A DNA stretch of 64,000 nt from Aliiroseovarius sp. S1123. GTDB lineage: Bacteria; Pseudomonadota; Alphaproteobacteria; Rhodobacterales; Rhodobacteraceae. The stretch lies in contig NZ_JALKBE010000001.1 in assembly GCF_023015885.1 (NCBI RefSeq), positions 496,001 to 560,000 on the forward strand, read 5' to 3'. The translations under genes were made by a program, and so were the position numbers. Below, piece by piece: positions 49,365-52,304 of the stretch (the stretch's first letter is position 1; each line of letters starts with the position of its first letter). A model generated the notes under the pieces. It ran no database searches, was not told the origin of the DNA, and saw only the letters and a program-made list of their open reading frames with translations.

Positions 49365-49389
49365 GAAGGGCGGGGATTACCCGCCCTTC
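49365..49389 (+). terminator. Terminator-like hairpin between fhs and folD
   Basis: GAAGGGCGGG / CCCGCCCTTC with a five-base loop and a short TTTT shortly after; it may reduce read-through from fhs into the folD genes. Confidence 0.6.
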
Positions 49390-49431: not shown

Positions 49432-50325
49432 ATGATTGGCAATACTGCCACTCTGATCGACGGCAAGGCCATTGCCGCTGACATGCGCAAGGATGTGGCC
49501 GCCCGCGCAGCCGAGCTTTCTGATAAAGGCTGGTCGCCCAAGCTGGTGTCGCTGTCCGTCGGTGACGTCGCCGCAGCCGAGCTTTACGTGCGTAACCAAC
49601 AGAAATCGGCGGAAAGCGCCGGGGTCGAGTTTGAAGCGCGCAACTATCCCTCTGAGACCTCGCTGGAGCAACTGACGGGCATCATCCAAGGCCTGAACGC
49701 CGACCCGCGCGTGAACGGGATCATCATTCAGCGCCCGCTGCCCGACCATATCCCGGTAAAGACCCTGCAAAAGCTGGTCCATCCGTTGAAGGATGTCGAA
49801 GGGATGCACCCCGCATCCATCGGCAACATCGTCTATAACGATCTGGCGCTGGGTCCCTGTACCGCTGTGGCGGCTGTCGAAATCCTGAAGACGTTGCCCT
49901 TGGACATGGAAGGGCTGAACGTCACTGTGATCGGCCACTCGGAAATCGTCGGCAAACCCATCGCCTTCCTTTTGATGGGGCTGGGCGCGACGGTCACCGT
50001 ATGTCACCACATGACCCGCTCGGTCGCGATGCATAGCCGCGCAGCGGATGCGGTGTTCGTCGCCGTGGGCAAGCCCGGTCTGGTGACCGGCGAGATGCTG
50101 AAACCCGGCTGCGCGGTGATCGACATTGGTATCAACCGCGTCGACGGCAAGACCGTGGGCGACGCGGATTTCGAAAGCTGCAGCCAAGTTGCGGGCTGGA
50201 TCACCCCGGTTCCCGGCGGTGTTGGCCCTGTGACGGTTGCGACCCTGATGTCGAACGCGGTATTGGCAACTGAAATGCAGATGAATCACTATCGTGACGC
50301 CTATGCGCGTTCCGAATTTGACTGA
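49432..50325 (+). CDS. FolD paralogue 1 with altered active site
   Basis: A 297-residue FolD-fold protein (methylene-tetrahydrofolate dehydrogenase/methenyl-tetrahydrofolate cyclohydrolase). The NADP-binding motif GHSEIVGKP and the C-terminal [10 protein letters not shown] are intact. The active site differs from normal FolD: Tyr52 is kept, but the following YxxxK lysine is Gln56 (YVRNQ), Gln100 is kept, and the DVDG aspartate is Glu123 (DVEG). In studied enzymes the lysine is essential for cyclohydrolase, while replacement can spare dehydrogenase. It is followed 17 bases later by a canonical FolD. I infer a mainly dehydrogenase or otherwise specialised enzyme. Confidence 0.9.
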
Positions 50326-50342
50326 CTGGTAAGGAGAGCGTG

Positions 50343-51233
50343 ATGACGGCTCAGATCATTGATGGCAAGGCATTTGCCGCAACTGTCCGCGAGAAAGTCG
50401 CGGGTCACGTGACCCGCTTGAAAGAAGAAAACGGCATCACCCCGGGTCTGGCCGTGGTGCTGGTCGGTGAAGATCCCGCCTCGCAGGTCTATGTCCGCTC
50501 GAAGGGCAAGCAGACCGTTGAAGTGGGCATGAACAGCTACGAGCACAAGCTGGACGCTGACACCTCGGAAGAGGATCTTCTGGCGCTGATCGACAAGCTG
50601 AACAACGACCCCGCTGTACACGGCATTCTGGTCCAGCTGCCGCTGCCCGGTCACCTGAACGAAGATCTGGTGATCAACTCGATCGACCCGGCCAAGGACG
50701 TGGACGGCTTCCACATCTCGAACGTGGGCCTTCTGGGCACCGGTCAGAAGTCGATGGTGCCCTGCACGCCGCTGGGCTGCCTGATGATGCTGCGTGACCA
50801 CCATGGCTCGCTGTCGGGGCTGAACGCCGTCGTGATCGGCCGCTCGAACATCGTGGGCAAGCCGATGGCGCAACTGCTGCTGGGCGACAGCTGCACCGTG
50901 ACCATCGCGCATAGCCGCACCAAAGACTTGCCCGAGGTCGTGCGCCGCGCAGACATCGTTGTCGCCGCCGTGGGTCGCCCTGAAATGGTGCCCGGAGACT
51001 GGATCCGCGAAGGCGCCACCGTGATCGACGTGGGCATCAACCGGATCGAGCGTGACGGCAAGAACAAGCTGGTCGGCGATGTGGACTTCGAGAGTGCCTC
51101 GAAAGTGGCAGGGGCGATCACGCCAGTGCCCGGCGGCGTCGGCCCGATGACCATCGCCTGCCTTCTGGCCAACACCCTGACCGCCTGCTGCCGCGCCAAC
51201 GGCCTGGCAGAGCCGGATGGGCTTACGGCGTAA
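50343..51233 (+). CDS. folD: Bifunctional methylene-THF dehydrogenase/methenyl-THF cyclohydrolase FolD (canonical copy)
   Basis: FolD, 296 residues, with every catalytic residue in place and at the same numbers as in E. coli: Tyr50 and Lys54 (YVRSK), Gln98 (LVQLPLP) and Asp121 (DVDGFH); the NADP loop is GRSNIVGKP. The ATG at 50343 lies 6 bases after AAGGAG, better than the GTG at 50340. The last 24 codons and the terminator are duplicated in diverged form 1.1 kb downstream, flanking a cytochrome gene. Confidence 0.96.
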
Positions 51234-51290
51234 GGCTTGCGCTTAAAAGAATTGAGGCGGCGTCAAGGGATCTTGGCGCCGTTTTTGTTT
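51160..51290 (+). repeat. Direct repeat copy A: folD 3' end plus terminator
   Basis: The last 24 codons of folD and the following terminator. The same arrangement recurs at 52304-52433; over the 72 coding bases I count 8 differences, six of them at third codon positions or otherwise silent. Confidence 0.85.
51258..51286 (+). terminator. folD terminator (copy A)
   Basis: CGGCGTCAAG / CTTGGCGCCG stem with a four-base loop and five T residues, 24 bases after the folD stop. Confidence 0.9.
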
Positions 51291-51467
51291 TGAACGGCAA
51301 GACGCGTGACAGGGCGGACAATGCTTTTTCGCAAACGTGGGCCGTTCGCACCCAGTTTTGAGAATTCAGCGAAATATAGTAGAGTATCAAATCAGCTCTT
51401 CAGAAACGTACTGATAGGGTCGTTATTAAAAAAAGGAATACAAGCACTTAGAATTGGGGGGATAATT

Positions 51468-52304
51468 ATGAATAGATTTCTATTCGCGTTTTCAGTTGCG
51501 ACATTTCCATTTTGCGCCATAGCCGAACCAAGTTTGGAGCGCGGTGAATACCTCGTTCGCGGACCAGCCGCGTGTGGCAATTGCCATACTCCACAAGGAC
51601 CAAACGGACCTGACATGTCGAACGAGCTTGGCGGAATGATGGTCGAAAAAAACGACATGATGGAAGCTTGGGCCGTGAACATCACACCCGGCGGTCGTGT
51701 CGCGGATTGGAGTGATGAAGAGCTCGCCCGTGCGATCCGTGAAGGCATTCGCCCGGACGGCTCCGTGATCGGCCCACCCATGCCAATTGGCCTCTATCGA
51801 GGGCTAGGTGATGACGATCTAATGTCGATTGTTGCATTCCTTCGAACCCTACCCGCCAGCGACAATCAAACGCCTTCTTCCACGTACAATTTCCCGCTTC
51901 CGCCAGCCTATGGCCCACCGGTTGAAACTGTTTCCGCGCCACCCCGTGGTGCGACTGTAGAATACGGTGCCTATCTTGCTGGGCCGGTTGCGCATTGCAC
52001 CGAGTGCCACACAACTTTCGGACCACAAGGCCCCATGTTTGACACCCATCTTGGCGCCGGGGGATTCGAATTTCATGGACCATGGGGGGTATCCGTCGCA
52101 CCGAACATAACCAGCCACGAAGACGGTCTGGCCGGCTATTCCGACGACGAGCTGAAAACCATGATCACTTCAGGTAAACGCCCCAACGGAAGTCAAATGT
52201 CGCCCCCGATGGGATATGGGTACTACGCGATGTTTTCACCCGAGGATATTGAGGCTGTCGTAATGTATCTGCGGACCATCCCTCCGCTGCCTGATCCTAA
52301 GTAG
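51468..52304 (+). CDS. Secreted diheme cytochrome c
   Basis: A periplasmic c-type cytochrome of 278 residues with a signal peptide of about 19 residues. Two heme sites are seen, CGNCH (36-40) and CTECH (177-181), each followed about 65 residues later by a PPM methionine ligand candidate (IGPPMPIG, MSPPMGYG); the two halves are internal repeats. Such proteins resemble cytochrome subunits of membrane alcohol or aldehyde dehydrogenases, but no dehydrogenase gene is near. The leader 51421-51480 is only 30% GC, unlike the flanking genes, and folD fragments lie on both sides, so acquisition by transfer is likely. GGGGGGA precedes the ATG. Confidence 0.9.
   Translation: MNRFLFAFSVATFPFCAIAEPSLERGEYLVRGPAACGNCHTPQGPNGPDMSNELGGMMVEKNDMMEAWAVNITPGGRVADWSDEELARAIREGIRPDGSVIGPPMPIGLYRGLGDDDLMSIVAFLRTLPASDNQTPSSTYNFPLPPAYGPPVETVSAPPRGATVEYGAYLAGPVAHCTECHTTFGPQGPMFDTHLGAGGFEFHGPWGVSVAPNITSHEDGLAGYSDDELKTMITSGKRPNGSQMSPPMGYGYYAMFSPEDIEAVVMYLRTIPPLPDPK

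Follow-up and report, generated by a model that had tools for sequence, protein, structure and literature searches.

The window, a stretch of 64,000 nucleotides from the genome of Aliiroseovarius sp. S1123, contains two adjacent folD-type genes preceded by fhs (Table 1). Both encoded proteins carry the two FolD Pfam domains; in copy 1, PF00763 (109.6 bits, cut-off 32.8) is followed by PF02882 (186.2 bits, cut-off 27). Copy 1 has a glutamine at the lysine site of the YxxxK motif and is termed FolDq; copy 2 has the lysine and is termed FolDk. The two proteins are 43% identical (120/280 columns), and theirs are the only FolD-type (PF00763) genes found in this genome. In Aliiroseovarius sp. PrR006, FolDq is 100%, FolDk 99% and Fhs 95% identical to the proteins of the window.

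Table 1. Features of the fhs-FolDq-FolDk locus, in positions of the window
Feature	Position	Strand	Details
fhs, formate--tetrahydrofolate ligase, 558 aa	47678..49354	+	PF01268 896 bits; NF010030 935 bits (cut-off 652)
Perfect 10-bp hairpin between fhs and FolDq, short T run	49365..49389	+	-22.7 kcal/mol, z -6.1 (200 shuffles)
FolDq (copy 1), 297 aa	49432..50325	+	Gln56, Arg101, Glu123, His169, Glu171, His193
Copy 1 Tyr52 codon	49585-49587	+	
Copy 1 Gln56 codon (CAA)	49597..49599	+	YxxxK lysine site
Copy 1 Arg101 codon	49732..49734	+	human MTHFD1 Leu101
Copy 1 Glu123 codon (GAA)	49798..49800	+	Asp125 in human, Asp121 in E. coli
Copy 1 His169-Ser170-Glu171 codons	49936..49944	+	within GHSEIVGKP; human MTHFD1 Arg173 region
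Copy 1 His193 codon	50008..50010	+	human MTHFD1 Ser197
FolDk (copy 2), canonical bifunctional-type FolD, 297 aa	50340..51233	+	NF010785 512 bits (cut-off 396); canonical residues complete
Terminator-like hairpin 3' of FolDk	51254..51285	+	terminator scan

The hairpin between fhs and FolDq was not reported by the terminator scan. It may be an attenuator or an mRNA-processing site, and the expression level of FolDq and FolDk may therefore differ from that of fhs. The terminator-like hairpin 3' of FolDk is weak, as the stretch has two such sites and shuffled sequences would lead one to expect 1.7. The FolD pair is followed, at 51306-52304, by a gene for a two-haem-type cytochrome c protein (PF00034, PF13442).

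Copy 1 has the motifs YVRNQQK, IIQRP and KDVEG, and keeps Gln100 and Asp121 alongside Tyr52. The corresponding motifs in copy 2 are YVRSKGK, VQLPLP and KDVDG. Both ORFs were confirmed where the first-pass annotation had placed them, with Tyr52, Gln56 and DVEG in the first and a standard FolD in the second. The numbering then given for copy 2 (Tyr50, Lys54, Gln98 and Asp121) holds from the ATG at 50343, which is the likely start; counted from the listed GTG at 50340, every residue number rises by one.

Among the matches listed (25 of 30), copy 1 reaches the cut-off of no NCBIfam model, its best score being 294.8 bits with NF010786 (cut-off 421), and copy 2 passes at least three curated FolD cut-offs. 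The best sequence match of copy 1 is the FolD of P. aeruginosa (4a5o, E 4.1e-73). Its AlphaFold2 model has a mean pLDDT of 90.5 and a pTM of 0.88, and the top Foldseek matches in the PDB are FolD/MTHFD chains, with TM-scores of 0.86-0.90 to several FolDs. Judged by its sequence, FolDq is a variant subfamily within the known FolD enzyme family. Two FolDq proteins are annotated as bifunctional in RefSeq.

The residues that set FolDq apart were compared in 118 distinct FolDq and 118 distinct FolDk sequences, the type being that of the better-scoring of the two window queries. In a separate comparison of 218 matches, 7 were dropped because of a stop or a short sequence (L066, L095, L106, L141, L145, L142 and the FolDk of L047). 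Positions 52, 56, 100, 101, 123 and 169 of FolDq read YQQREH in 116 of the 118 sequences, the exceptions being L095, with an unreadable short stretch, and L110. Residue by residue, Gln56 is present in 117/117 readable FolDq and Glu123 in 116/117. Arg101 is found in 117/117 readable FolDq and in 0/117 readable FolDk, and FolDk has the lysine and the aspartate of the YxxxK and DVDG sites in 117/117 readable of 118 distinct sequences. No intermediate was met in this census, which was gathered by similarity to the two types and is not a sample of all FolDs.

Four further positions, on which the first-pass annotation had not remarked, co-vary with Gln56 and Glu123: Leu101 is replaced by arginine, the equivalent of human Arg173 by His169, an asparagine by Glu171, and the equivalent of human Ser197 by His193. 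Position 171 is mostly glutamate, with alanine in 9/118 sequences, and position 193 is histidine in all readable sequences but two. The nucleotide-binding loop and the GGVGP loop are invariant in an alignment of 74 loci and the window; of the 80 loci, L033 (identical to the window copy), L047, L066, L095, L106 and L110 were omitted. Only L110 has Gly121 and Arg123 instead of the usual Asp and Glu, possibly through a sequence error. In two metagenome assemblies (L066 7010-7885 and L106 3589-4686), FolDq has an in-frame stop or is split into two ORFs, which may reflect either error or decay.

The substrate and catalytic residues given for human MTHFD1 are Tyr52, Lys56, Gln100, Leu101, Asp125, Gly273 and Gly276 (PMC3368264). 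FolDq replaces three of these seven (Lys56, Leu101 and Asp125) and keeps the tyrosine and Gln100. Of the residues by which a bifunctional FolD is recognized, copy 1 thus has glutamine for the YxxxK lysine and glutamate for the substrate aspartate. With the bacterial bifunctional enzymes (E. coli 1b0a/5o22, P. aeruginosa 4a5o), FolDq has in common the two-domain fold, the tyrosine, Gln100, the GGVGP loop and the length, but it differs by the changes of the catalytic Lys to Gln, of Leu101 to Arg, of Asp to Glu and of the NADP-site residues to His. Human MTHFD1 and MTHFD2 have the same fold as the FolDq model; unlike FolDq, they keep the catalytic lysine (Lys56 and Lys88, respectively), and both are bifunctional enzymes (PMC9173628).

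A likeness in these residues is offered by yeast Mtd1 (1edz/1ee9), which the titles of two papers, of 2005 and 1990, call a monofunctional NAD-dependent dehydrogenase. The Mtd1 motifs (1edz) are MYATWTQK, KDVEG, VYFP for VQLP, and INRSEIVG. In both Mtd1 and FolDq the YxxxK lysine is gone, DVEG replaces DVDG, and a glutamate stands in SEIVG. They differ at the lysine site itself, which is Thr (YxxxT) in Mtd1 and Gln in FolDq, and at position 100, which is Tyr in Mtd1 whereas Gln is kept in 117/117 readable FolDq. Mtd1 fits the FolDk profile better (70.9 bits) than the FolDq profile (55.6 bits); on these profile scores the likeness looks convergent, and a common origin of FolDq and Mtd1 is not indicated.

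The best reading of the residue changes is that FolDq keeps the dehydrogenase and loses the cyclohydrolase, a reading supported by the precedent of Mtd1, which the first-pass annotation did not mention. Published accounts disagree on how much Lys56 contributes to the dehydrogenase, and this was counted against certainty. The lysine is credited with supporting hydride transfer (PMC3368264, PMC6443876), so that its loss could harm the dehydrogenase of FolDq. Its catalytic role in that step was doubted from the kinetics of K56E by the authors of PMC9173628, who could not exclude a role in the cyclohydrolase step. The human K56Q substitution had been described in the first-pass annotation as abolishing the cyclohydrolase only; the literature search found no paper testing it.

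Regarding the cofactor, Arg173, His196 and Ser197 are described as holding the 2'-phosphate of NADP in human MTHFD1 (PMC3368264). Ser197 is presented as key to the 2'-phosphate, and Arg233 at this position of MTHFD2 as possibly permitting the use of NAD (PMC9173628). FolDq has histidines, His169 and His193, where MTHFD1 has Arg173 and Ser197, and so departs from the NADP type. This does not prove the use of NAD, as NADP-dependent FolDs such as that of E. coli also vary at these positions; the two histidines are compatible with NADP as well, which counts against the NAD reading. A preference for NAD, suggested by the two residues and the likeness to Mtd1, would suit energy generation.

Taken with the gene neighbourhoods described below, these features favor, with a probability of roughly 0.55, the reading of FolDq as a working 5,10-methylene-THF dehydrogenase, probably NAD+-preferring, that would have lost most or all of its cyclohydrolase activity and would serve the dissimilation of methyl groups.

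The rival that survives best, although it is considered unlikely, is that FolDq is still bifunctional, with Arg101 supplying the charge lost with Lys56 and Glu123 adjusting the binding of the pterin, in a clade tuned for oxidative flux and not deprived of a step. Arg101 is fixed exactly where Lys56 is lost, and replacement of the lysine charge with the cyclohydrolase kept could count against the loss of that activity. However, arginine would presumably serve poorly as a proton shuttle in place of Lys56, and yeast Mtd1 lost the lysine and exchanged Asp for Glu without gaining an arginine.

The complement of partner enzymes also bears on this alternative. FolDq genomes were drawn from the family and the Pseudomonadota sets, 15 from each with two shared, giving 28 genomes. 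FchA (PF04961) was found in 0/28 of these, by a search that gave a match in 2/14 known genomes used as positive controls. An FchA acting as hidden partner of FolDq is thus rejected for these 28 genomes, and its absence is what a bifunctional FolDq would lead one to expect. In acetogens and clostridia, the dehydrogenase gene lies near fhs and the cyclohydrolase is provided by another protein, as is proposed for FolDq; the gene order is fhs1-fchA-folD in Acetobacterium woodii (PMC10472528), and a FolD/FchA pair of Clostridium perfringens is the subject of a title cited in PMC7219735. FolDq would differ from these systems in having a lysine-type FolD as partner. For Paracoccus aminophilus, PMC4543880 gives neither Fch nor MtdA and assigns both steps to FolD.

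Of the 28 genomes, 27 have another, intact FolD-type gene, and the remaining one (G002) has pieces at contig edges only; a lysine-type FolD is present in 7 of 8 additional FolDq genomes. The exception, the possibly incomplete genome G519, showed FolDq and no FolDk, and would fit a FolDq able to carry out both steps. Retention of the lysine-type enzyme speaks against a bifunctional FolDq, but weakly, FolD being, to our knowledge, near universal; for the same reason, the co-presence of FolDk is consistent with a dependence of FolDq on it and is not proof of one. Fhs was found in 28/28 genomes, in G309 by contig-edge fragments only, and is common regardless (113/120 family genomes).

The first-pass annotation had suggested that the pair, together with fhs, splits the two steps of methylene-THF oxidation between two proteins. 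The specialization of copy 1 is supported, but support for an even split is only partial, since FolDk has the look of a fully bifunctional enzyme and keeps every bifunctional residue that was checked. No column differs consistently, at the 80% level, between FolDk paired with FolDq (55 sequences) and unpaired FolDk (15), and a reciprocal specialization of FolDk was rejected. Furthermore, any FolDk is present in only 57/80 FolDq loci, so that many FolDq genes lack a FolDk neighbour.

The order Fhs-FolDq-FolDk is found in 52/80 loci. FolDk immediately follows FolDq in 54/80, and in 20/80 neither Fhs nor FolDk is nearby. Among the 53 loci of the Rhodobacterales group to which the window belongs, fhs is nearby in 49 and methyl-demethylation genes in only 3. 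Outside this main group, methyl-demethylation genes lie within 8.5 kb of FolDq in 23/51 loci, against 3/19 control loci with a solo FolDk (Fisher p 0.028, the rows being related, the controls all from Alphaproteobacteria, and some matches distant homologues). The 23 comprise 8/25 named loci, 11/20 further loci, and 4/6 from a second Rhodobacterales group and plasmids.

Some neighbourhoods are clear examples. One locus (L113) contains SoxB-SoxD-SoxA, fhs, FolDk and FolDq. Another (L114) contains fhs, FolDk, FolDq, Tdm, Tmm, GlnT/GmaS-type and N-methylglutamate synthase-type genes, and a gene for a DmmA-type HODM protein; in L113 and L114, Tdm, Tmm, SoxAB and GlnT exceed the NCBIfam cut-offs. 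A plasmid of Ponticoccus alexandrii (L120, NZ_CP047170.1 374283-396894) carries fdhF, fhs, folD, FolDq and tdm, with serine-cycle-type genes beyond, and this region is possibly a plasmid-borne methylotrophy island. On a Paracoccus aminovorans plasmid, FolDq adjoins a BCCT transporter gene, and choX and betC follow at about 8 kb. A GcvT-fused flavoprotein adjoins FolDq in SAR324 loci, and MTHFR, FolDk, PurU and FolDq lie together in L083. A Ruegeria pomeroyi mutant lacking both fhs copies is reported to grow more slowly on choline and not at all when glycine betaine is the sole carbon source (PMC4744692), and a legend in the supplement of that paper places folD, ftsH and tmm/tdm near the fhs genes.

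The genome of the window gave eight GcvT-domain matches, of which GcvT and a DMSP demethylase exceed their cut-offs. A SoxA-type protein, also among the eight, is truncated at the locus end and scores just under cut-off. No GmaS-like match was found in this genome. Within the family, a GmaS-like gene is present in 6/15 FolDq genomes and 28/105 others (p 0.36), so that a genome-level link between FolDq and GmaS is not significant.

These neighbours also weigh on a second alternative, in which FolDq uses another C1 carrier, or works in the reductive direction, and its residue set reflects the substrate. Three substrate-contact positions have indeed changed together. The retention of Tyr52 and Gln100 and the THF-linked surroundings (fhs in most Rhodobacterales loci, PurU and MTHFR in L083, and demethylases with a GcvT domain) argue against this possibility, which is held to be quite improbable.

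FolD enzymes are dimers, and FolDq might be a regulatory or structural partner of FolDk in a heterodimer, weak or inactive alone. The position of FolDk directly after FolDq in most loci would agree with such a role. The 20 loci with neither Fhs nor FolDk nearby, the invariant nucleotide-binding and GGVGP loops and a sequence constraint equal to that on FolDk make it very unlikely.

The constraint and the ancestry of FolDq were examined with codon comparisons and a tree. Median dN was 0.146 for FolDq and 0.134 for FolDk (300 random locus pairs among 72 loci), and median dN/dS was 0.132 (199 pairs) and 0.135 (220 pairs), respectively, with synonymous sites near saturation, non-independent pairs, and duplicate genomes between the sets. 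On these values FolDq is under purifying selection equal to that on FolDk. In a tree built without the six diagnostic columns, 52 FolDq rows are split from 37 FolDk rows on one branch (SH-aLRT 100). The 89 rows were thinned from 196 distinct sequences, L110 being omitted, and the tree comes from a quick search with midpoint rooting and no bootstrap. The FolDk side includes the FolDs of E. coli, P. aeruginosa and C. jejuni and that of 5nhs. As the two types lie on opposite sides of the branch, FolDq was not derived from the neighbouring Rhodobacterales FolDk, and the pair in the window is not a recent tandem duplication.

FolDq was found in 15/120 genomes of the family, at 66% identity or more in 11 of them (window included) and at 55-61% in 4. 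In a sample of 398 Pseudomonadota genomes, the FolDq profile identified 15, all Alphaproteobacteria by kinship; these matches score above 415 bits and the next one 311 bits, so that the two types separate cleanly. Outside that class, FolDq was found in 15/80 genomes from the order to which L109 belongs (its record is titled Acidiferrobacteraceae), an order that holds gammaproteobacterial MAGs, and in 6/52 genomes from the phylum to which L098 belongs (its record is titled SAR324). The Gln56/Glu123 clade about which the first-pass annotation asked is real, and is wider than the roseobacters. The one other sampled genome of the window's genus (G350) has a single FolD match and no FolDq, suggesting that FolDq was lost or transferred among members of this genus. 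Viral carriage was set aside, as one protein query gave no match among viral contigs. A Rhodobacteraceae-like Fhs-FolDq-FolDk cluster (82-85% identity) is present in a 4.26-Mb record (L069) titled Exiguobacterium profundum isolate SSD5 chromosome, a title that is probably wrong given this cluster.

That FolDq is a drifting duplicate with no special function, as its patchy distribution, its absence from G350 and the stop or split in L066 and L106 might suggest, is hardly credible in view of residues fixed in 116/118 sequences, a dN/dS of about 0.13 and one deep clade spanning several groups. The same evidence rejects a local decay of copy 1 and bears out the earlier description of a specialized and not decaying enzyme, here a conserved full-length lineage.

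Under the preferred reading of FolDq as a dehydrogenase devoted to methyl-group dissimilation, GcvT-type demethylases acting on sarcosine, dimethylglycine, TMAO or N-methylglutamate would load methylene-THF. FolDq would convert it to methenyl-THF with production of NAD(P)H, and a lysine-bearing FolDk, adjacent or elsewhere in the genome, would hydrolyse methenyl-THF to 10-formyl-THF. Fhs would then release formate, with a gain of ATP.

A broader proposal is made tentatively: FolDq may constitute an unrecognized lineage of bacterial methylene-THF dehydrogenases that are monofunctional and NAD+-dependent, have converged on Mtd1, and uncouple the formation of methenyl-THF from its hydrolysis in methyl-oxidising bacteria. 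Arg101 and Glu123 would hold methenyl-THF for hand-over to a lysine-type FolD, and this would apply across Alphaproteobacteria, gammaproteobacterial MAGs and SAR324, making the bifunctional annotation wrong for the whole clade. No description of a Gln56 FolD clade was found in the literature, which is weak evidence of absence since folD could not be separated from 'fold' in the search.

If the reading of FolDq as a monofunctional dehydrogenase is correct, a widespread enzyme of the oxidation of methylated amines and betaines in the sea is misannotated. FolDq would be the bacterial counterpart of yeast Mtd1, pointing to a path along which FolD has more than once lost one of its two activities, and would provide a natural set of residues with which to consider the role of the YxxxK lysine in each step. 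It would also bear on the source of NADH and NADPH as marine bacteria oxidise the methyl groups of osmolytes.
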